Shown here piece by piece: positions 3,545-48,959 of a stretch of 64,000 nucleotides of DNA. Origin of the DNA: Sporomusa sp. KB1. GTDB taxonomy: Bacteria > Bacillota > Negativicutes > Sporomusales > Sporomusaceae. Each line of letters opens with the position of its first letter. The first letter of the stretch is position 1. Location: positions 577,773-641,772 of the forward strand of contig NZ_VLKC01000001.1 in NCBI RefSeq assembly GCF_007830295.1, read 5' to 3'. Under the pieces are notes generated by a model. The model was given only the letters and a program-made list of their open reading frames with translations, was not told the DNA's origin and searched no databases. Both the position numbers and the translations under genes were made by a program.

Positions 3545-5791
<2,247 letters not shown>

Positions 5792-38134: not shown

Positions 38135-38381
38135 CGAAAATTCTCCTCGCCTATACACTTACTTTTCATAATAATTATATATTCCGCCTCCTACTATGTC
38201 TACTTATTCTAGTATTTAGCCACTTTACCTAAACGTAACATAAAGTTAACAAGACCTTAAATTACCAGGGGAGGAGAATTAGCTGGAAAGAATAACATGT
38301 ATTATATTGAGTAAATTGTTTCTATCTTAGTACTAAGCCGCATCTTCCCGCAAAATGCATGTAGACAAAGGAGTATCTGCC

Positions 38382-40211
38382 ATGAGCTTTCTAAAAAAAT
38401 CTACTACTACTATCACCAGGTCACTAACTACTATAAAAACCTTCATAACTGCTACTCTGCCTGTAAAATTAAAATTTCATTACCAACTAAGTTTACGCAC
38501 TAAGCTGCTTGCCGTTGTAGCTATCTTCTCCCTGTTATCAATTAGCATTGGCATCGTTGGCTTGCATGGCATAAAAGCATCCAACGATGCTTTGAGGAGC
38601 ATGTACACTAGTCGCATTATAACCCTACAAGAACTTAAGCTTATGTCTGACGCACTTACAGTGAATGTTGTAGAAACCTGTCATAAGATTAGTGACGGCC
38701 ATATGGCCTGGGCTCTGGGCCGAAACAAACTTACTGAAGGCACCACAATTATTAAGCAGCAGTGGACCACTTACAAAAACCATGTAGCTACAACTGAAGA
38801 AGAACGGCTGGTTGCTCAGATAGACGGTTTTTTAGGAATTGCTGAGGGTGCACTTGCCAATGCCACTACCATCATGATAAAAGAAGACAAACAAGCGTTG
38901 AATGCTTTTATGATTGAAGAATTATACGCAAGTATTGAGCCAGTCTCAGGTAAACTGTCTGAACTCATGGACCTCCAACTGGAATTAGCCCAAAAAGAAT
39001 ATCAAGCCGCTACTGACAGATATCATTGGCTCATCGTGCTGTTTTCAATCATGATTATCGCCGGACTAAGCACAGCCATTGCCTTGGTCCTATTTATCCT
39101 CCAACGAACTCTCCGCGAAATCCACGATATGGTTACTTACGTCGAACAAGTGGCTACAGGTAATCTGGCAATGCCCGAAATTTCTATCACCGCTAATGAT
39201 GAGCTGGGACGTCTGGGTATTGCCATCAATGCCATGGTCATTAACCTGAATTCATTGGTAGGAACCGTTTCCTCATCAGCGAATCAGGTAGTGATTGCCT
39301 CAGAGGAAACAGCAGCATCTGTTGAGCAGGTCTCGACTACCGCTACTGAGTTGGCAGGTTATAGTACCGACTTGGCCGCTGCTGCTGCTGTCGGCACAGT
39401 TTCGGTTATCGAAGTATCTAAATCATTATTAGAACTCTCCTCACTCATTGAAATTGCCAAGCGTGAAGCCACGTCAGCGGTAGCTAACTCACAATCGACA
39501 CTGAACACCGCCCTGGACAGCCGTCGAACCATGGCCAGTACCGTTGTCCGCATGAATAACATCCGGAGCAAAACACTGGAAACCGAGGAGCTTATTGGAA
39601 CCCTTAATCAATATATCGCCAAAATTGGTGCTATTACCGACACCATAACAAGTATTGCCTCCCAAACAAGCTTGCTTTCTCTAAATGCGGCTATCGAAGC
39701 TGCCCGGGCAGGTGAGGCTGGCCGCGGTTTCGCGGTAGTAGCACAAGAAGTCAAAAAGCTGGCCGAGCAATCTACGCAGGGAGCCACTGAGGTTGCGGCA
39801 CTTATTCAAAGAATAAAGGAAAGCACTGCTGACGCCGTTCAGGCTATGCAAGGCAGCCGAGCCGAAGTGGAAAATGGCGTAGCCAGTGCCGGTCAGGCTC
39901 AGCAGGCGTTAAATGATATTTTTTCAGCAGTAACCAGCACCGTAACTGACATTGAAGCCGTGCTGTCCATCACCGATGAAGAAGTCACCCATTCAGATAG
40001 GATTATTGATTTAATTGACTCTTTGGCAACTGTAATTGAAAATACGGCAGAACAGGCCGAAACAGTCTCAGCAAACACCAAACAGACCGCTGCTGTCATG
40101 GATTCGCTGGCAGTCAATTCTACTCAAACCAATCAAATGGCGGCTAGCTTAAAAGTTGCCATTGAATTCTTTACGACAGACAATAAAAATATGAATCATT
40201 TGGAGGTATAA
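38382..40211 (+). CDS. Methyl-accepting chemotaxis protein
   Basis: 609 residues: a membrane segment ([20 protein letters not shown]), a four-helix-bundle sensor domain, a second membrane segment ([20 protein letters not shown]), HAMP, and a signalling domain whose tip contains [20 protein letters not shown], then [18 protein letters not shown]. The ATG at 38382 follows AAAGGAG by 8 bases; the frame is open 9 codons further up. STAS, CheY and CheX-like genes follow, so it may feed a dedicated small pathway. Confidence 0.93.
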
Positions 40212-40215
40212 GAGA

Positions 40216-40542
40216 ATGGAAAATCACGTATTTCATATTGAAAACAGTCAGGTCATCGCAAATTTGACAGGCAGCTTGCAAGGAGAAGCAGCCGCCCAGC
40301 TCCGGGCGACGCTGCTAACGTATATCGCAGACGGCTACAACAATTTTACAGTTGATTTTTCCCATGTAAGCAATATTGATTCAACCGGATTGGGTATTCT
40401 TGTTACTATTCAAAAACGCGCCCTACAAAGTGGCGGCAGCATCACTCTTCAAGGCCTGCACGGCACAGTCAAAACTGCCTTTGACCGCACCCGGCTGAGT
40501 AAAGCCTTTACCATTGCCGATGCTGAGCATGCAGTAGCATAA
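40216..40542 (+). CDS. STAS domain protein (anti-sigma factor antagonist-like)
   Basis: A 108-residue STAS domain with the phospho-site region FSHVSNIDSTGLGILVTIQK (Ser-Thr after Asp). It starts 4 bases after the MCP stop and is thus coupled to it. Such proteins usually switch anti-sigma factors by phosphorylation; no anti-sigma kinase is nearby, so its partner is unknown. Confidence 0.88.
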   Translation: MENHVFHIENSQVIANLTGSLQGEAAAQLRATLLTYIADGYNNFTVDFSHVSNIDSTGLGILVTIQKRALQSGGSITLQGLHGTVKTAFDRTRLSKAFTIADAEHAVA

Positions 40543-40578
40543 AGGAAATTCCAAGCCATAAATTAGTCATTTTTTGCA

Positions 40579-40635
40579 ATATTCTAGTTTACTTAGTAAA
40601 ATTTACAAGGAATTTTACTAAGTAAACTAGAATAT
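40579..40635. repeat. Long perfect inverted repeat between the STAS and cheY genes
   Basis: Perfect 25-base arms (beginning ATATTCTAGTTTACTTAG) enclose a 7-base loop. No T-run follows, so it is not a standard terminator. It stands 36 bases after the STAS stop and 37 before cheY and could act as an attenuating or processing structure, or be a small mobile palindrome. Confidence 0.8.
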
Positions 40636-40672
40636 ATCCTTTAAAATCATTAGTTTATGGAAGGAGTTTACT

Positions 40673-41038
40673 ATGGAATCTCGAACCTGCCCAGTATTAA
40701 TCTGTGATGACTCAATGCTTATTCGAAAAAAACTCCGGGCCACACTTGAAGCAATGCACTGCCAGGTTTATGAAGCCAAAAATGGCCTTGAGTGTGTTGA
40801 AATGTTCAAATTACACACCCCTAACACAGTATTTTTGGATATTGTAATGCCTGAACTTGACGGCCTGGAAGCCCTTAAGCAAATCAAACAATGTGACAAA
40901 AGTGCACGTGTTATTATGCTGTCATCAACCGGCACTGCCAAAAAACTTCTCGAAGCCCTTAAAAATGGCGCTACTGATTTTATCCAAAAACCCTACACCA
41001 AAGACCAAATTGCCAAAGCGATTGGTTATATTGAATAA
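40673..41038 (+). CDS. CheY-like single-domain response regulator
   Basis: A 121-residue receiver domain: D12/D13, phospho-acceptor D56 (VFLDIVMPELDG), SSTGTAKK (Thr switch) and KPYTK (Lys). No output domain. The CheX-like gene follows by 12 bases and could be its phosphatase. AAGGAG lies 7 bases ahead. Confidence 0.92.
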   Translation: MESRTCPVLICDDSMLIRKKLRATLEAMHCQVYEAKNGLECVEMFKLHTPNTVFLDIVMPELDGLEALKQIKQCDKSARVIMLSSTGTAKKLLEALKNGATDFIQKPYTKDQIAKAIGYIE

Positions 41039-41050
41039 AAGGAGCTAATG

Positions 41051-41923
41051 ATGTATACACAATATTTGGGTCAATACCTAATTAATACAAGCCTCATTTC
41101 TGCCGACCAGCTTTGCGAGTTACTGTCATTAGCCGAATCAACCCATGTAAAGCTTGGAGTTTTAGCCATTGATAACGGACTTATGACAGCAAGTCAAGTT
41201 GAAGAAGTACATGGCCTGCAACGAACGATGGATCGCCGGTTTGGCGAAATTGCCATCACCAAAGGCTATCTTACCCAGACGCAGGTTGATAGCCTGCTTT
41301 CCCAACAAGACAGCCGCCATTTGAGCCTAAGTCAGGCAATTATTGATAAAGGCTACCTTACATTATCACAATTAGAAACAGCACTTACTCAATTTAAGCA
41401 GGATACCCAGTTATCTACCGAACAACTCCAAGCTATGCAGACTGGCAATGTGGATGAAATCGTTCGTTTATTTCTAGATTTTCCTGATAATGATGTTCCC
41501 CAGTTCTACTATGATTATGTCGCACTTTTCCTGAAAAACTGCATTCGCTTCCTCAATGAACGCCCTGTACTGTCTTGGCCGCAACCGTTAAACCAAACAG
41601 CTGATGGCTGGTATATCTCCCAACAAGCGATTGGCAACTATACCGTTTCTACTGGAATAATCCTCAGCGATGCCGGGCTTATTGATGTTGCCAGCCGTTT
41701 CAGCCAAGAGACGTTAACCCATGTGGATGAACTGGCAAAAGATAGCGTAAGTGAATTCCTGAATTTGCATAATGGTATCTTTCTTATTAATGTATCAGAT
41801 AAAGGCTTCAATCTTGATTTGCAACCGCCAGCAATAACGCCTAATACCGGTCATTATACAGGATACCGGATTCCAATCACTCTTTCCAGCGGGTGCATTG
41901 AACTTGTACTCTCTATTGCCTGA
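41051..41923 (+). CDS. MshEN-like repeats fused to a CheX-like phosphatase domain
   Basis: About 290 residues. The N-terminal half has three repeats of GxxLIxxxLISxxQL form (LGQYLINTSLISADQL; FGEIAITKGYLTQTQV; LSQAIIDKGYLTLSQL), as in GspE/MshEN N-domains, some of which bind c-di-GMP. The C-terminal half has the CheX/CheC signature ExxNxxxG (SEFLNLHNG). The neighbour CheY is a likely target. Two ATG codons are in tandem (41048, 41051); the second is 6 bases from GGAG and is preferred. Function is inferred from domains. Confidence 0.7.
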   Translation: MYTQYLGQYLINTSLISADQLCELLSLAESTHVKLGVLAIDNGLMTASQVEEVHGLQRTMDRRFGEIAITKGYLTQTQVDSLLSQQDSRHLSLSQAIIDKGYLTLSQLETALTQFKQDTQLSTEQLQAMQTGNVDEIVRLFLDFPDNDVPQFYYDYVALFLKNCIRFLNERPVLSWPQPLNQTADGWYISQQAIGNYTVSTGIILSDAGLIDVASRFSQETLTHVDELAKDSVSEFLNLHNGIFLINVSDKGFNLDLQPPAITPNTGHYTGYRIPITLSSGCIELVLSIA

Positions 41924-42634: not shown

Positions 42635-44488
42635 TTACCTTTGCGTAAAACTCAAGTTTTTCAAAAATCTATTTTGAAACTCCGGCTGTGCGGCCAGTTC
42701 TATATAGCTGACTTTATTGGCTATACTAACGCATCTCTGCATTTTTTCTGCAGATAATAGTGCCTGAACTGCACCTGTCCCGGCCGCATTCCCAACAGAA
42801 CGGATAGCCTCTCTTTTGAATCCTGGTAACAAGCCAATTGTTAAGGCACTATCAATATCAACATAATTCCCAAAGGCACCCGCTAAGCATACTTCCTTGT
42901 ATTGAGTTTCAGCAGGCATCCTATCTATTAAAAATTGGATACCGGTGCATATTGACGATTTTACCAGTTGGAGCTGACGCACATCATTCTGCGTAATTGA
43001 AATGTCAGCCCCACTGGCACTATTTTCTCCTTCATAAAGAACAAATTCCCATTGACCATCCTTTTCTTTCAACCGTTGCCGTAGATGGTCTGGTAAGTTT
43101 GCCCGCTCAGGCTTGTTAAACCGTCCGCTCTCCTGCAATATACTATTTTTTACCATCTCACCAATGGCCTTTACAATGCCTGAACCACAGATACCAGTAG
43201 GTGTAACATTGCCAATTACTTGAACAGACACAGCCTGCTCGGTTATCGTGACATCACTAATAGCACCATCTGCCGCCCTCATACCGTCCCGGATATGAGC
43301 CCCTTCAAAGGCAGGCCCGGCTGCCGTCGAACAGACATACAGCTTTTTTCCATCCCCGAGAGCCATCTCGCCATTAGTGCCTAAATCTACCATTAGTATT
43401 GGTTCTACCGCAATATCCTGATCTACAGCCAGAATAGCTGCCGTCGTATCTGAGCCAACAAAGCTGGCAATATTCGGCAGCATAATAATTTTCCCTTGTG
43501 GATTTATATCCAGTTCCAGCGCCTTGGGACTAAGCGGCGATATATAATTAAACAGAGCGGCATATGGCTTTCGCACCAGCGTCGACGGTGAAATTGCCAA
43601 TACTAAATGTGCCATCGTAGCATTACCAGCAATGGTTCCGGCATAAATATGGTTTTGTGTCACCTCCACTGAGCTGCATAACTCAGCGATAATTTGATTT
43701 AAACAATGCCGGATAAGCTCCGACAGCCGTTCCAGCCCGCCCTCCAGTTCATGCGTAGCTTGAATCCGGGAAATAACATCAGCCCCCATTGCGGCTTGCG
43801 GATTATTTTTAGAGCATACTGCAACTATCTTTTTGGCGTTAATATCTACCAGCATGCCTACAACGGTAGTTGTACCGATATCAAATGCCACACCATACAG
43901 CATACTTGACGTATCCCCTGCTTCAACTGCAATAACCTTACTATCAAGCATTGTAACGGTTATGAGCTTAGGGTTTGTTTCCAGCACTTCACTTAATTGC
44001 CGCAGTATTGCAGCACTCGCAATATTCCCCGTGTTGTCGAAAACACTATCAGTTGGTTTACTTTTTCCTAGCGCCTGACGAATCATCTCCTGCAAAGAAT
44101 AATGATTATCTACAGTAGGATAGGCCGGTGCCAAAACAACCTTTTTGAGTAAAGGCATATCATCGTCAATAACTATTTCAAAAGCTTGTCCTTTTTGACT
44201 TACCTCCGCCCTTTTCAGTACAATGGTGATATCGCCCTGGGGATAAACCTGGCACGCCTGATACATATTGTCCTTATCCGGCTGAATTTCAATTCCGTCT
44301 TTACCGCTAACAGGGCCCTCAAGAACCTGTATTTTACACTTACCGCATGTACCTCTGCCACCACAGTTAGCTTCAAGAAATATGCCGCCATCAATGAGAG
44401 CACGCAAAATTGTTTTTTCCCGCTCGCATGGCAAAGATCGTTCTTCGCCTTCAATACGTAATGTATACACTGAAGATGCCTCTATCAT
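42635..44488 (-). CDS. Corrinoid reductive activator, ferredoxin plus ASKHA domain (RACo/RamA-like)
   Basis: 617 residues: an N-terminal 2Fe-2S ferredoxin (C42, C48, C51, C79; NCGGRGTCGKC), a linker, and a large actin-like ASKHA ATPase domain (GVAFDIGTTTVVGMLVD; LMVDLGTNGEMALGD; GPAFEGAHIRDGM). Such proteins use ATP to re-reduce inactive Co(II) corrinoid to Co(I) in methyltransferase systems and acetogenesis. It should serve the corrinoid protein at 45862-46491, though a terminator (44539-44579) separates them. Confidence 0.92.
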   Translation of the reverse strand: MIEASSVYTLRIEGEERSLPCEREKTILRALIDGGIFLEANCGGRGTCGKCKIQVLEGPVSGKDGIEIQPDKDNMYQACQVYPQGDITIVLKRAEVSQKGQAFEIVIDDDMPLLKKVVLAPAYPTVDNHYSLQEMIRQALGKSKPTDSVFDNTGNIASAAILRQLSEVLETNPKLITVTMLDSKVIAVEAGDTSSMLYGVAFDIGTTTVVGMLVDINAKKIVAVCSKNNPQAAMGADVISRIQATHELEGGLERLSELIRHCLNQIIAELCSSVEVTQNHIYAGTIAGNATMAHLVLAISPSTLVRKPYAALFNYISPLSPKALELDINPQGKIIMLPNIASFVGSDTTAAILAVDQDIAVEPILMVDLGTNGEMALGDGKKLYVCSTAAGPAFEGAHIRDGMRAADGAISDVTITEQAVSVQVIGNVTPTGICGSGIVKAIGEMVKNSILQESGRFNKPERANLPDHLRQRLKEKDGQWEFVLYEGENSASGADISITQNDVRQLQLVKSSICTGIQFLIDRMPAETQYKEVCLAGAFGNYVDIDSALTIGLLPGFKREAIRSVGNAAGTGAVQALLSAEKMQRCVSIANKVSYIELAAQPEFQNRFLKNLSFTQR

Positions 44489-44538
44489 GTGTAAACCCTC
44501 TTTCGCTTCTTAAAATAGTAAAACTATAAATAGAAACC

Positions 44539-44579
44539 AAAAAGAAGAACCACTACTTTACGCTGGTAGTTCTTCTTTT
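44539..44579 (-). terminator. Rho-independent terminator after the 143-residue protein gene
   Basis: AAAAGAAGAAC pairs with GTTCTTCTTTT around an 18-base loop, followed on the minus strand by TTTTTGG. It separates the GTPase/143-residue pair from the ASKHA gene. Confidence 0.75.
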
Positions 44580-44645
44580 GGCAGAATGTATGTAACACGC
44601 CTCTAACGGGAGTAGAGACGCCGAAACATCATGGTAGTATCACAA

Positions 44646-45077
44646 TTAGCAATTGCCACAGCTGTCCCTGCGTAAAATGGCGAGTGAATCATTCACTATT
44701 TCTTCTACAGTCTTTTTACTATGCCCAAAAACTAATACATTGATATCCAAACTAACACTATTAAATTCACTGGATAAGCCAGTTTGCCACTCGGCCGACG
44801 ACTTTACGTCCAGGTGGTCAAGTCTTGTAAGCGATAAAAACAGAAACTCTTCATTCGTTACTTTGGCAAGCACCTTAATATGGCCCACGATAATACCATT
44901 ATGGGCTAAAGGTCTGCCAAGATCTTGGATCAGTTGCTTTACAAGTTTTTCAACATTTAACTTGGTAACAGGCTTATCAAAGCTAATGGTATGAGTTTTA
45001 CTAAAAACGGTAGCATCAGTTAGGGTTGTAGGTGTCTGTTTGCTGTTGATTTTGAATTTGTGTTTGAGTTTATTCAA
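44646..45077 (-). CDS. Unrecognised 143-residue protein next to a COG0523 GTPase
   Basis: I do not recognise this protein. It is soluble and mixed alpha/beta in look (NVEKLVKQLIQDLGRPLAHN; GHIKVLAKV; LDINVLVFGHSKKTVEEIV) and ends in CGNC. Its start overlaps the GTPase stop by 8 bases, so they are translated together. Context suggests a metal- or cofactor-insertion accessory of the corrinoid module, for example a scaffold or target of the GTPase; that is inference only. Confidence 0.75.
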   Translation of the reverse strand: MNKLKHKFKINSKQTPTTLTDATVFSKTHTISFDKPVTKLNVEKLVKQLIQDLGRPLAHNGIIVGHIKVLAKVTNEEFLFLSLTRLDHLDVKSSAEWQTGLSSEFNSVSLDINVLVFGHSKKTVEEIVNDSLAILRRDSCGNC

Positions 45078-45663
45078 AGCGAATTACCTCCTCTATTATA
45101 TCTGGAGGCAATTTATCTGCTGCACTGGCTACCTTAATCGGTGCAGTGTTGACTAGTTCACGAATGTCATTGATAATTTCCGTCCTGTCAGAACCAGCAA
45201 TATCGGCCTTGTTAATAATAACAAGGTCTGTTTTCTCTACCTGTCCGGTAACAAGGGGGCCAAGAACTTCTTTTAACTCCGGCCAACGCCCCATATCAAC
45301 AATCGTTATTGTCTTAAACCCGGTATAAAAGTTGCAATATTCATTAATCAATTTAGCGATATTACCAGGAATTGCTAACCCGGTCATCTCAATGATCAGC
45401 CAATCCGGCTTAATAGTTTCATTGATCTCTCTTACCGCAGTTATTAGGTCACTTGTAATTTGACAGCATACGCAGCCACCAAACAGCGGCCTTACTTGTA
45501 AGCCGCTATCAGCTAACAACTTATCATCAATACCGGCTTCGCCAATTTCGTTTTCAATAAGAGCTACTGTCTCATGCTTATTTTCGGTAATATATTTGGC
45601 AATTTGCAGTATTGTGGTAGTTTTACCTGAACCTAAGAACCCGCCGAACAGTAAAATACGCAT
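45070..45663 (-). CDS. COG0523/CobW-HypB-like P-loop GTPase
   Basis: A 197-residue GTPase: Walker A GFLGSGKT (8-15), the metal-binding CxCC motif at C64-C67 (GGCVCCQIT), Walker B-like LIIEMTG and INKAD for guanine recognition. It lacks the C-terminal CobW domain, being about half the length of full CobW. Relatives load metals or assist cobalamin enzymes. It follows the corrinoid gene after a hairpin (45763-45799) and is coupled to the 143-residue protein gene. Confidence 0.88.
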   Translation of the reverse strand: MRILLFGGFLGSGKTTTILQIAKYITENKHETVALIENEIGEAGIDDKLLADSGLQVRPLFGGCVCCQITSDLITAVREINETIKPDWLIIEMTGLAIPGNIAKLINEYCNFYTGFKTITIVDMGRWPELKEVLGPLVTGQVEKTDLVIINKADIAGSDRTEIINDIRELVNTAPIKVASAADKLPPDIIEEVIRFE

Positions 45664-45762
45664 TCATTCCCCACCTTTACCTACTCACGTAAGCTATCTA
45701 ATAGTTACAAAACCAGTATACCATCTATCTACCAAGTTAGGAAGTATCTTGGAGCCGCTACC

Positions 45763-45799
45763 GAAATAATCCGGATTGCCCTGCAACCCGGATTATTTC
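45763..45799 (-). terminator. Hairpin after the corrinoid protein gene
   Basis: Perfect 12-base arms (GAAATAATCCGG / CCGGATTATTTC) with a 13-base loop. The T-run is poor, so it may only partly terminate the methyltransferase-corrinoid transcript. Confidence 0.65.
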
Positions 45800-45861
45800 T
45801 AGAATAAATAGTATTTCTTGGCAGTGCATACTATGCTATTACTAGTTGGGGATCATACCAC

Positions 45862-46491
45862 CTAGTTAATGCCCGAAGCTTTCTTGGACATTTCAACTGC
45901 GTCATAAGCATTCTTACAATAGCCGTCTGCTGCGCACCATGTAGCAACACTTTCGTCAACCGGGCCGCCGCCAACCAGAATAGTTGCTTTTGTACCAGTA
46001 GCTTTTACCGCTGCTACAGTTTCTTTCATCACATCAAAAGCAGTTGTCAACAGACAGAACATGCCAACTACGTCCGGATTATGAGTTTTTACTGCCTCAA
46101 TAAAGGTTTCGATCGGGGCATCGACACCAATATCCACGACTTTGAAACCGTTACAGCTTAGAATTGTAGAAACAATATTTTTACCGATATCATGAATATC
46201 ATCTTTTACAGTTCCCAGGATAACTGTGCCAACAGCTTTTTTATCGCCGTTATCTGCAAGGGCCGAACCCAGAAGAGCGGCTGCATTTGAAAACACTTCG
46301 GCAGACATAATCAATTCGGACAGGTAGTAGTCACCAGCTTCATACAGTTTGCCTACGCCTTCCATACCTTCTTGCAGCTGCCCAAGAATCTCAACTGCTG
46401 ACACACCGGCTGCAAGTTGTTCATTTACTGACGAAATTACTAAATCTTCCTCTAATTCAATTACCGCTTTTACCAAATCAATATTTGCCAT
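45862..46491 (-). CDS. Methyltransferase corrinoid protein
   Basis: A 209-residue corrinoid protein: an N-terminal helical cap (1-85) and a Rossmann-like B12 domain with the cobalt-ligand motif DxHxxG (D98, H100, G103 in DIHDIGKNI) and GGGPVDE near the end. It carries the methyl group between a donor methyltransferase and THF. The ATG at 46491 has GGGGG 8 bases ahead. It lies 72 bases after the methyl-THF methyltransferase gene. Confidence 0.94.
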   Translation of the reverse strand: MANIDLVKAVIELEEDLVISSVNEQLAAGVSAVEILGQLQEGMEGVGKLYEAGDYYLSELIMSAEVFSNAAALLGSALADNGDKKAVGTVILGTVKDDIHDIGKNIVSTILSCNGFKVVDIGVDAPIETFIEAVKTHNPDVVGMFCLLTTAFDVMKETVAAVKATGTKATILVGGGPVDESVATWCAADGYCKNAYDAVEMSKKASGIN

Positions 46492-46563
46492 TTCAAATTC
46501 CCCCATATCATTAATTTATTTTAAATTAGATACGATACTCGTTGCGTCACCTGCATCACAGGC

Positions 46564-47367
46564 TTATTCATAAATTCCTTTTCTATGAGCCTTAAGATAG
46601 TTTTTACAAAATCTATCATTGCCTAGTAAAGCTTGTCCTGCGTATACCACGCCCATCATAGCTTTATCTGTTGGGTTAAGTATATAGCCATCCATTCCTA
46701 CAGTCATGGTTTGAACTACAAATAAGCGATTGAGAACAGCCCGATTAGGAAAACCGTAGGAGATATTGCTCAAACCACAGGTAAGGTGTACTGCGGGATA
46801 TTTTTGCTTAATAGCATAAATAGCATCCAATACAGATTTGCCATACTTATCATTGGTGCTTAATGGCTTAATCAGTGGATCAAGGTAGATATCGTCTTGC
46901 TGAATTCCCTCTTTTTCCATGTCGTCAACCAACTTGCTGGCAATTCGTAAACGGTCTTCAGCAGTTTCCGGCATGCCGGCATCTTCAATACAAAGAGCGA
47001 CTATCTTTGCGTTGAACTCCTTTACCAGAGGAATAACTGCTTGGTAGCGCTTCTCTTCAGCAGTTGTGGAATTAATCATTCGCTTGCCATTAGTAGTCTT
47101 GGCCAGCATTAACCCGGCTTTTAAAGCATTCTCGTCAGGACTATCGATACATAGAGGTATGTCGGTAACCTCTTGGATGGTATTTACCAGCCATTCCATA
47201 CATTCAATTTCCTGTCCGACCATTGTTCCGCAGTTTACGTCCAGATAATTAGCACCGGCTGCCGCTTGCTGTTTGGCAACCTCTTGGATGTATGCTGCGT
47301 TCCTTGCTTCTACTGCTTCACGAATCGCCTTGCGGCTAGTGTTAATGAGTTCTCCGATTATTAACAT
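46564..47367 (-). CDS. Methyltetrahydrofolate:corrinoid methyltransferase
   Basis: A 267-residue pterin-binding TIM barrel (MLIIGELINTSRKAI; GANYLDVNCGT; PLCIDSPDENALKAGL; HLTCGLSNISYGFPNRAVLN). It transfers a methyl group between the corrinoid protein and tetrahydrofolate, as AcsE and MtvA-type enzymes do. The ATG at 47367 has GGAGG 12 bases ahead; the frame is open 27 codons further upstream but overlaps the promoter. No substrate methyltransferase (MtaB, MttB or MtvB type) is in the window. Confidence 0.94.
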   Translation of the reverse strand: MLIIGELINTSRKAIREAVEARNAAYIQEVAKQQAAAGANYLDVNCGTMVGQEIECMEWLVNTIQEVTDIPLCIDSPDENALKAGLMLAKTTNGKRMINSTTAEEKRYQAVIPLVKEFNAKIVALCIEDAGMPETAEDRLRIASKLVDDMEKEGIQQDDIYLDPLIKPLSTNDKYGKSVLDAIYAIKQKYPAVHLTCGLSNISYGFPNRAVLNRLFVVQTMTVGMDGYILNPTDKAMMGVVYAGQALLGNDRFCKNYLKAHRKGIYE

Positions 47368-47419
47368 GTAAGCTTTATTCCTCCAATCATTTTTATACGT
47401 TGTATATACATCTATATGT

Positions 47420-47448
47420 ATAATAACGCTAGCCTTACATCTTGTCAA
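47420..47448 (-). promoter_or_regulatory. Strong promoter of the methyltransferase-corrinoid operon
   Basis: Minus strand TTGACA (47443-47448), a 17-base spacer and TATTAT (47420-47425), with the ATG about 50 bases beyond. A small dyad ATACATATAGATGTAT overlaps the -10 and start region and could be an operator. Confidence 0.75.
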
Positions 47449-47761: not shown

Positions 47762-48091
47762 TTAACCGTGCTTCACCACATCAACATCTACAACATAAAC
47801 CAGCCCTCGCGTGACCATTTCAGATATAGCCGGCAACACAGCGCTGATTTTTTCCTCTGTATCGACCGCTTCGATAACCATAGGCAGATCAGCCGACAAA
47901 TCTAAAATCCCTACTTTTTTGATGAGTTTGTCCACTCCGTATCCTTCAACGCCTCGACTAGCCGTAACCCCGGCAATACCGGACTCTTTGAGTTTATAAA
48001 TTATCGCGTGATAAAGATTTTTTCCCTCATATTTTTGCAGTTCTCCAACGTAAATTTTCAGTAGTTTACACTTTCCCGACTGCAATATCAT
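47762..48091 (-). CDS. DUF190 family protein
   Basis: A 109-residue PII-like-fold protein of DUF190 (LLKIYVGELQKYEGKNLYHA; GIAGVTASRGVEGYG). The family is commonly encoded beside CrcB fluoride channels, as here (20 bases after crcB), and is presumed to regulate or sense fluoride or nucleotide state. Function not established. Confidence 0.9.
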   Translation of the reverse strand: MILQSGKCKLLKIYVGELQKYEGKNLYHAIIYKLKESGIAGVTASRGVEGYGVDKLIKKVGILDLSADLPMVIEAVDTEEKISAVLPAISEMVTRGLVYVVDVDVVKHG

Positions 48092-48110
48092 ATCAATTCC
48101 CTCCTTCTTT

Positions 48111-48479
48111 TTAAGCCCCGCAGAGATAACCGATGCCGCAGCACAATAGCCCGACGATCACGCTTCCGGCAACATAATTGAAAAAGTTTTTCCATTCCCC
48201 ATCTTCCACCAACCGGATACTTTCATACGCAAAAGTTGAGTGTGTCGTGTAAGCACCTAAAAAACCAATTTGAAAACCATAGCGTTCGATGATGACCCGG
48301 TTAATTGGAAGGCCCGCAATATGGGCAACCGATAAACCGAGAAGAAACGAACCGGTTATGTTAATTAAAAAGGTCGCCAAGGGAAATGTCATAAAATAAT
48401 GTCTGCCTACTATCAGTCCAATGCTATATCGTGCCAAGGCGCCCGCAATGCCACCAACACCAATGATGAATATTTCCAT
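48111..48479 (-). CDS. crcB: CrcB/Fluc fluoride channel subunit, second gene
   Basis: A 122-residue, four-helix fluoride channel subunit (GGIAGALARYSIGL; FLINITGSFLLG; GFLGAYTTHSTFAYE). Two crcB genes in tandem usually make a heterodimer. The Phe-box region reads YTTHSTF here against FTTFSTF in the partner. The ATG at 48479 follows GGAGGGG by 7 bases, and overlaps nothing: it lies 4 bases after the first crcB stop. Confidence 0.92.
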   Translation of the reverse strand: MEIFIIGVGGIAGALARYSIGLIVGRHYFMTFPLATFLINITGSFLLGLSVAHIAGLPINRVIIERYGFQIGFLGAYTTHSTFAYESIRLVEDGEWKNFFNYVAGSVIVGLLCCGIGYLCGA

Positions 48480-48483
48480 ACTG

Positions 48484-48915
48484 TTACCCCTCCATATCAC
48501 CAATAGTTTCTATATCCGCCTGTCTATTGGCCTTGATTTTTTCAACACCACGGGCGGCAACAAAACCGAATGCCGACATGGCAATGCACAAAAAAATACT
48601 GGAAAATAAATATAACCCAACGTACCAATATTGATGAGCGAAAAATAATTGAACCGTTTCTAGAGAAAATGTAGAAAATGTCGTAAATGCACCGAGGAAC
48701 CCAGTGGAAAATCCCAATCGAAGAAACGGACTGATTACTAATAAGTCTAAAGTAACAGTAAGAAATAGGGACAATATAAAGCAGCCCAGCAAATTAATAA
48801 CCAGTGTTCCCCATGGAAATCCTGTACTGTTTACTAAGTCAACAAAGAGTTGACCCATACCAAACCGGGCTATAGCTCCCAGAAAACCACCAACCGCTAC
48901 TGCAAAATATCTCAC
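48484..48915 (-). CDS. crcB: CrcB/Fluc fluoride channel subunit, first gene
   Basis: A 143-residue, four-helix fluoride channel subunit (AVAVGGFLGAIARFGMG; VINLLGCFILS; GFLGAFTTFSTFSLE). I place the start at the GTG at 48915 because GAGGAGG stands 8 bases before it; a GTG three codons earlier overlaps that site. The sequence immediately upstream runs into the decayed group II intron, so its natural leader may be lost. I see no convincing fluoride riboswitch. Confidence 0.92.
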   Translation of the reverse strand: MRYFAVAVGGFLGAIARFGMGQLFVDLVNSTGFPWGTLVINLLGCFILSLFLTVTLDLLVISPFLRLGFSTGFLGAFTTFSTFSLETVQLFFAHQYWYVGLYLFSSIFLCIAMSAFGFVAARGVEKIKANRQADIETIGDMEG

Positions 48916-48959
48916 AAGCTTCACCTCCTCTCGGTGCGCACGTTGCGCGCTTCATATAT

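Follow-up and report, generated by a model that had tools for sequence, protein, structure and literature searches.

The subject of this analysis is a five-gene corrinoid methyl-transfer module at positions 42635-47367 of a 64-kb stretch of DNA from Sporomusa sp. KB1 (hereafter the window; C2:577773-641772, where C1 and C2 are the two contigs of the 6.06 Mb genome). All five genes lie on the minus strand and were characterized using the open reading frame list together with Pfam and NCBIfam searches. The first codes for a methyl-tetrahydrofolate (THF):corrinoid protein methyltransferase (46564-47367; 267 amino acids (aa) counted from the ATG) of the MTII type, similar to MtgA, CdmA and AcsE and here called MeTr. 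It matches Pfam Pterin_bind and scores 362 bits against NCBIfam PRK07535 (cut-off 259); its nearest solved structures are 4o0q and AcsE-type chains, and an MttB locus elsewhere in this genome encodes a MeTr with 58% identity to it. It is followed by the gene for a corrinoid protein, the predicted methyl carrier (45862-46506; 214 aa), with B12-binding_2 (PF02607) and B12-binding (PF02310) domains, a DxHxxG motif and 4jgi as its top PDB match. Next comes a CobW/COG0523-type GTPase (45070-45663; 197 aa; PF02492, 126 bits) with a GGCVCC motif, which lacks the C-terminal CobW domain and shares 59% identity with the GTPase of the genome's methanol (MtaB) locus. The end of the GTPase gene overlaps by 8 bases the start of a gene for a 143-aa protein (44646-45077), here termed S143. 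The last product is a ferredoxin-ASKHA, ATP-dependent corrinoid activator of the RACo/RamA type (42635-44488; 617 aa; RACo_C_ter 268 bits, Raco_middle and Fer2). A first-pass annotation of this DNA had listed the THF-side methyltransferase, the corrinoid protein, a CxCC GTPase and the reactivase, all borne out by the Pfam and NCBIfam matches; S143 is a fifth gene absent from its list. The combination of corrinoid protein, THF-side methyltransferase and ATP-dependent activator is the one seen in corrinoid O-demethylase systems.

The unit formed by the MeTr and corrinoid protein genes is preceded on the minus strand by a sigma-70 promoter, TTGACA-N17-TATTAT (47420-47448), which the first-pass annotation had correctly placed. 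Among the region's 19 promoter-like sites it ranks first, with 11 of 12 matches; shuffled sequences yield 14.0 such sites, and the same promoter layout is found at MeTr in Sporomusa relatives. Between the S143 and RACo genes lies a strong, terminator-like hairpin (44536-44582, minus strand; minimum free energy -22.2 kcal/mol, z -4.2), which points to separate transcription of RACo; a weak hairpin (45770-45792, minus strand; z -1.9) is present between the corrinoid protein and GTPase genes. The module is thus probably not one transcription unit but two or three.

No substrate methyltransferase is encoded within 42635-47367, and none of the UroD superfamily is present in the module operon. The lack of an MtaB-, MttB- or MtvB-type gene, which we confirm, had led the first-pass annotation to describe the module as an orphan; it suggested that the donor enzyme lies elsewhere, that several donors are served, or that the module operates in reverse, and it proposed a genome search for unlinked substrate methyltransferases. 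That search recovered 7 MttB-type genes (all on C1), 1 MtaB, 19 corrinoid domains, 9 Pterin_bind, 9 RACo and 32 UroD genes over the Pfam cut-off. After removal of DHPS, MetH and one gene beside an acs-type RACo, six of the nine Pterin_bind genes remain as hub-type methyltransferases. For five of these six an MtaB, MttB or UroD gene is found at a distance of 6 kb or less; the sixth, that of the window, is the only one to have none within 18 kb. The genome's single MtaB (C1:69361-70725) is ruled out as partner of the module by its own complete locus, and donors of the MtaB or MttB type, as had been expected, are probably not the partners. The module was also considered as a paralogue of the methanol module that had lost MtaB, an origin rejected for the module as a whole: within the genome the methanol locus holds the closest relatives of CobW and S143, an MttB locus that of MeTr, and a third locus that of the corrinoid protein. 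As a separate observation on the MttB genes, two of them (C1:245559 and C1:247155) have an in-frame TAG after Gly-Gly, which we take to be the expected position of pyrrolysine, and a tRNA-Pyl gene adjoins them (locus L091, C1:240000-258000, at 4138-4209), so that the genome probably uses pyrrolysine.

The same search revealed that 17 of the 32 UroD genes form a single clade in the tree, here named UROD17. Against their own profile these proteins score 420-584 bits (226-561 bits in leave-one-out), and the other 15 UroD proteins reach at most 106 bits. Most are ~370-380 aa long, and 16 of 17 display an H-x-D...C signature; among the other 15, eleven show H-x-C...C and the remaining four differ. 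In MtaA the H-x-C...C residues bind zinc. Alignment with MtaA places its His and second Cys at the UROD17 His and Cys, whereas CdmB has neither. CdmB is the best solved match of the UROD17 profile (E 5e-52, as against 3e-11 for MtaA), and in a comparison bearing on type 1 mlp gene clusters, which are marked by an MtaA-like protein with above 25% identity to a known SCMT, four UROD17 proteins of this genome scored 33-53 bits to mtaA_cmuA (cut-off 235). In this genome no Pterin_bind gene lies within 18 kb of any of the 17, and for 15 of them there is no corrinoid protein gene within 10 kb. The proposals that the donor lies elsewhere and that several donors are served are both supported by these 17 candidate methyltransferases lacking a methyl-THF methyltransferase of their own. 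The nearest of them (C2:643575-644678) is 18.4 kb from the MeTr gene and 1.8 kb past the end of the window. UROD17 genes are adjoined by genes for LysR regulators, MFS transporters or SLH porins; as TIGR00895 (aromatic acid family) was the top NCBIfam match for one of nine MFS transporters tested, and far under cut-off, no transporter substrate is claimed. One group (L108, C1:554000-572000) has six UROD17 genes within 12 kb, accompanied by a LysR gene, an SLH porin and MFS transporters, and contains no corrinoid protein. Another locus (L096, C1:2502000-2516000) combines a 454-aa UROD17 protein (closest to CdmB, 158 bits) with an SLH porin, two MFS-like genes and a GntR-corrinoid protein pair of its own, and is a second, separate mini-system.

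Phyletic patterns link this clade to the module. We examined 60 genomes of relatives (G labels; the named ones mostly Sporomusa) and a phylum sample of 398 genomes, in which the UROD17 scan scored at most five candidates per genome, making its counts lower bounds. Among the relatives S143 is present in 17 of 60 genomes and UROD17 in 18, with both in 17 and neither in 42 (Fisher 5e-14). At the genus level both occur in 7 of 40 genera and UROD17 alone in one (4e-7); a single genus (g6) contains three genomes with both and two with neither. UROD17 lies within 21 kb of the S143 gene in 13 of the 16 genomes with a window-type S143, where random placement would give 0.72, although the relatives counted are not independent of one another. 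In G013, G020 and G023 it is found inside the operon, in the order MeTr, corrinoid protein, UROD17, CobW, S143. More generally, 7 of 15 19-kb stretches from relatives hold a UROD17 gene, and none of the 15 holds an MttB, an MtaB or another type of UroD. UROD17 is thus the sole type of substrate methyltransferase in or beside the module in these relatives, which likewise supports the first two suggestions. The 12 stretches counted from the phylum sample (10 picked by S143 and 2 by UROD17; a thirteenth, L178, was annotated but is outside the count) include eight with UROD17, one with another UroD and none with an MttB gene. S143 itself is 88-89% identical to its S. ovata counterpart.

Gene order in distant Bacillota is consistent with these associations. 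Three loci (L167, L168 and L170) present one operon of MeTr, corrinoid protein, UROD17 (two genes in L167), GntR, second corrinoid protein, DUF1638, CobW and S143. In L166 and L169 the operon has no adjoining MeTr, and L176 and L177 have no match to S143. The MeTr of the three complete operons is nearest to Pter_L035 of our genome (47-48%), and that of L176 to the MeTr of the window (63%). Judged from gene content and order, this continuous operon is split in two in Sporomusa sp. KB1. The second half (UROD17, DUF1638, second corrinoid protein and GntR) is situated at C2:643.6-649.7 kb, just past the window; the halves are ~18-25 kb apart, with the GntR/UTRA gene ~25 kb upstream of the hub. The parts are contiguous in G009 and G011 too, but G011 lacks UROD17 there. 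The second corrinoid protein is not universal, GntR being followed directly by DUF1638 in G013, G020, G023 and G015. In the tree the hub corrinoid proteins form a clade of 23 (support 0.69), in which that of the window groups with 22 module proteins of relatives, apart from all other corrinoid proteins of its own genome; the second corrinoid proteins form a clade of 12 (0.96).

The two halves also share a putative operator. Directly 3' of the -10 box of the MeTr promoter lies ATATAGATGTATATA (47403-47417, minus strand), which is likewise found in the GntR unit outside the window. The motif ATATAGATGTATAKA follows the MeTr -10 box in 8 of 8 Sporomusa genomes and, at 7 of the 8 readable Sporomusa loci, also lies in the promoter of GntR (the miss is L192; L189 and L193 are outside the count). 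Allowing at most one mismatch, the pattern has one match in the window (0.03 expected) and two in 16 kb of locus L106 (0.00 expected). We also built a matrix from 15 MeTr and GntR sites and scanned 503,525 bases of the genome; the top three matches were MeTr (32.8 bits), GntR (30.6 bits) and DUF2284 (23.7 bits), the first two by construction, as both sites belong to the training set, and the third from outside it. Three rounds on shuffled sequence gave no match of 16 bits or more. The DUF2284 gene (L106:2777-3400) encodes a predicted metal-binding protein, carries the operator in its promoter and is also found beside the module in G009, G011 and G012. In G009 and G011 the operator further occurs 5' of both MeTr and RACo, and the GntR loci of G013 and G020 have sites of 22-25 bits in front of no identified gene. 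Outside the family no site was found in L145, L146 or L166-L178, and L147 and L148 have sites of 15-18 bits. The scan found no strong operator before the other UROD17 genes; an AT-rich, 17.8-bit operator-like site lies between the UROD17 gene L056 and its LysR gene. The operator common to both halves makes it likely that the hub and the second half are co-regulated by GntR. With a UROD17 gene 1.8 kb beyond the window, in a cluster bearing the module's own operator, the designation as an orphan does not hold by the refuting condition that the first-pass annotation had itself set.

Taken together, we consider it probable (roughly 0.78) that the module acts as a THF-side hub shared by many donors, the dispersed UROD17 enzymes, in a corrinoid-dependent demethylation system. 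It would have seemed partnerless because these demethylating enzymes are scattered over the genome; the module is thus probably a shared hub split from its regulator half. We infer that substrate-specific UROD17 enzymes move methyl groups from their substrates to the Co(I) form of the module's corrinoid protein, from which MeTr would pass them to THF and into the Wood-Ljungdahl pathway, with RACo re-reducing corrinoid that has slipped to Co(II). CobW and S143 probably load a metal, zinc being the obvious candidate, into the UROD17 enzymes. The GntR/UTRA repressor, encoded with the second corrinoid protein and DUF1638, would bind the shared operator and control the hub, while LysR regulators probably turn on individual UROD17 genes. 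As the genus Sporomusa grows on vanillate and syringate, according to the available part of one account (PMC12003927), our guess is that the substrates are most likely methoxylated aromatics. A further idea, which we regard as distinctly doubtful, is that the second corrinoid protein is a sensor rather than a main-path carrier, its methylation or redox state informing the repressor of methyl flow so that the hub is switched on by flux. The methanol locus, where the second corrinoid protein lies directly beside a PocR/AraC-type regulator, would be an independent case of this principle.

Several observations weigh against a shared hub as described. G024, a genome 65% complete, has UROD17 without S143; three of the 16 genomes with a window-type S143 (G008, G011 and G021) show no UROD17-S143 linkage within 21 kb; and G015, where GntR adjoins RACo and DUF1638, lacks both S143 and UROD17. 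In the phylum sample UroD matches with E<1e-60 are found in at least 60 of 398 genomes against 11 for S143; many strong matches thus occur without S143, and related enzymes therefore work without the CobW/S143 pair. The H-x-C...C UroD enzymes likewise have no CobW/S143 neighbour, and a metal-chaperone role is thus not general. Only one of the 17 (L063, 454 aa) combines length with a strong match to CdmB (158 bits), and the two short UROD17 proteins tested, L070 of this genome and L145 of a relative, score 58 and 80 bits. Finally, the top-scoring MttB gene (C1:1220066) also has no methyl-THF methyltransferase nearby and could use the hub.

The alternative that survives best, although we consider it unlikely, is that the hub serves only the co-regulated UROD17 enzyme at C2:643575-644678, the other 16 using other corrinoid proteins. 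The one or two UROD17 genes per operon in distant Bacillota would suit such an arrangement, as would two corrinoid proteins of this genome (CP_L025 and CP_L026) that adjoin GntR genes and lie beside no hub methyltransferase. Yet the operon UROD17 of G013, G020 and G023, nearest to L073 and L066 of our genome, belongs to another subclade than that of G005 and G009, indicating that the operon has had more than one type of UROD17 as its partner; furthermore, window-type S143 stays at one copy even where a genome carries as many as 17 UROD17 genes. Service to MttB-type donors (for quaternary or tertiary amines) with no MeTr of their own was retained as a very improbable alternative. The MttB at C1:1220066 has a corrinoid protein and no Pterin_bind gene within 60 kb, the hub MeTr is closest to that of an MttB locus, and MtqA/MtqC of Eubacterium limosum is a hub common to several MttB-type enzymes, as far as its description is available (PMC8604678). 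Against this, MttB shows no linkage to the module in relatives, being absent from all 15 of their stretches and all 12 of the phylum sample, and both S143 genes of this genome lie away from its MttB loci. We give scant credence to the reverse reaction, with methyl-THF as the donor to the corrinoid protein and the UROD17 enzymes acting as MtaA does, delivering the methyl group to an acceptor such as a thiol or selenol. UROD17 belongs to MtaA's superfamily with the aligned His and Cys kept, and the genome encodes other UroD proteins of the strong MtaA type, proposed in the available part of PMC10418091 to have methyl-sulfur or methyl-selenide roles, but the UROD17 profile is far closer to CdmB than to MtaA, the neighbouring LysR, MFS or SLH-porin genes form a substrate-uptake layout, and the sequences offered no support for the transfer from THF to an acceptor that the first-pass annotation had entertained.

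Returning to the shared hub, its accessory proteins offer some functional clues. The module GTPase adjoins corrinoid methyltransferase genes, a feature of COG0523 subfamily 13, as judged from its PF02492 match and gene position; a published survey, in the part available, reports that this subfamily co-localizes with corrinoid-dependent methyltransferases and proposes a link to zinc (PMC2770081). A further GTPase (C1:114338), considered as a third CobW, was set aside as it has no BLAST match to the module CobW; the sizes of neighbouring genes point to a putative UreG. S143 has a conserved GHIK motif; it gave no Pfam or NCBIfam match, and a sequence search against solved structures yielded nothing convincing. 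Its AlphaFold2 model (pLDDT 85) had no Foldseek match with E <0.001; VIA-align returned 3ueb (Z 8.5), then the YjiA C-terminal domain (Z 6.4-6.6), matches that are suggestive only, as Z below 8 is common. On the basis of the model it is possible that S143 is a detached CobW C-terminal-like domain, which would suit a GTPase without that domain, and the two, found together at the methanol locus as well, may form a split metal-insertion pair. DUF1638 has been tied by fitness data in Phaeobacter to B12 reactivation together with a RamA-like protein, according to the part of the study available (PMC5764234).

Elsewhere around the module, 47762-48924 holds a DUF190 gene (by Pfam) and two short CrcB-like fluoride channel genes (by reading of the translations). 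On the other side (38355-41923) are chemoreceptor, STAS, response-regulator and CheX-like genes, labelled by reading, which in most of the close relatives keep their place next to YajQ and the module.

If the proposed hub is real, Sporomusa-like acetogens could gain a new methyl substrate by acquiring one small cassette of methyltransferase, transporter and regulator, with no new corrinoid machinery, and anywhere from 1 to 17 UROD17 enzymes could consequently depend on a single hub. It would also provide a partner list for 17 so far unassigned enzymes, a regulon operator and a clue to the function of S143 and DUF1638.

In the open-licence PMC literature, as far as its text was available, we found no description of a hub of this kind. 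The O-demethylase systems known from acetogens and methanogens (MtvABC, OdmABCD, VdmABCD and MtoABCD) are similar in their UroD-superfamily donor enzyme, small corrinoid protein, activator, THF- or tetrahydromethanopterin-side methyltransferase and adjoining transporters, in the available portions of their descriptions (PMC8630106, PMC13222342). The present system differs in its 17 dispersed donors without a hub of their own, mostly shorter at ~370-380 aa as against the 47-48 kDa of MtoB, and in the addition of CobW/S143, the second corrinoid protein, DUF1638 and GntR. From the Cdm chloromethane system of Acetobacterium dehalogenans (CdmBCA) comes CdmB, the best solved match of UROD17; however, in our alignment it lacks the His and Cys conserved in UROD17, and it was found to be zinc-free in the available part of PMC13222342. 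The genome's own methanol locus (C1:67-76 kb, in L089, C1:60000-79999) resembles the module in having RACo, DUF1638, two corrinoid proteins, MeTr, CobW (59%) and an S143 homologue (40%), but is a separate gene set with MtaB inside and the PocR/AraC-type regulator beside its second corrinoid protein. The GTPases of COG0523 subfamily 13 are likewise CobW-type and encoded beside corrinoid methyltransferase genes, an S143 partner not being among the features described for them in the available part of PMC2770081. The idea of a hub is itself already known for MttB-type enzymes: in the MtqC/MtqA/RamQ system of Eubacterium limosum a single corrinoid protein and a single THF methyltransferase are common to several donors, which there, in the available part of the account, belong to the MttB superfamily and act on quaternary amines (PMC8604678), whereas those of the present system are of the UroD type.

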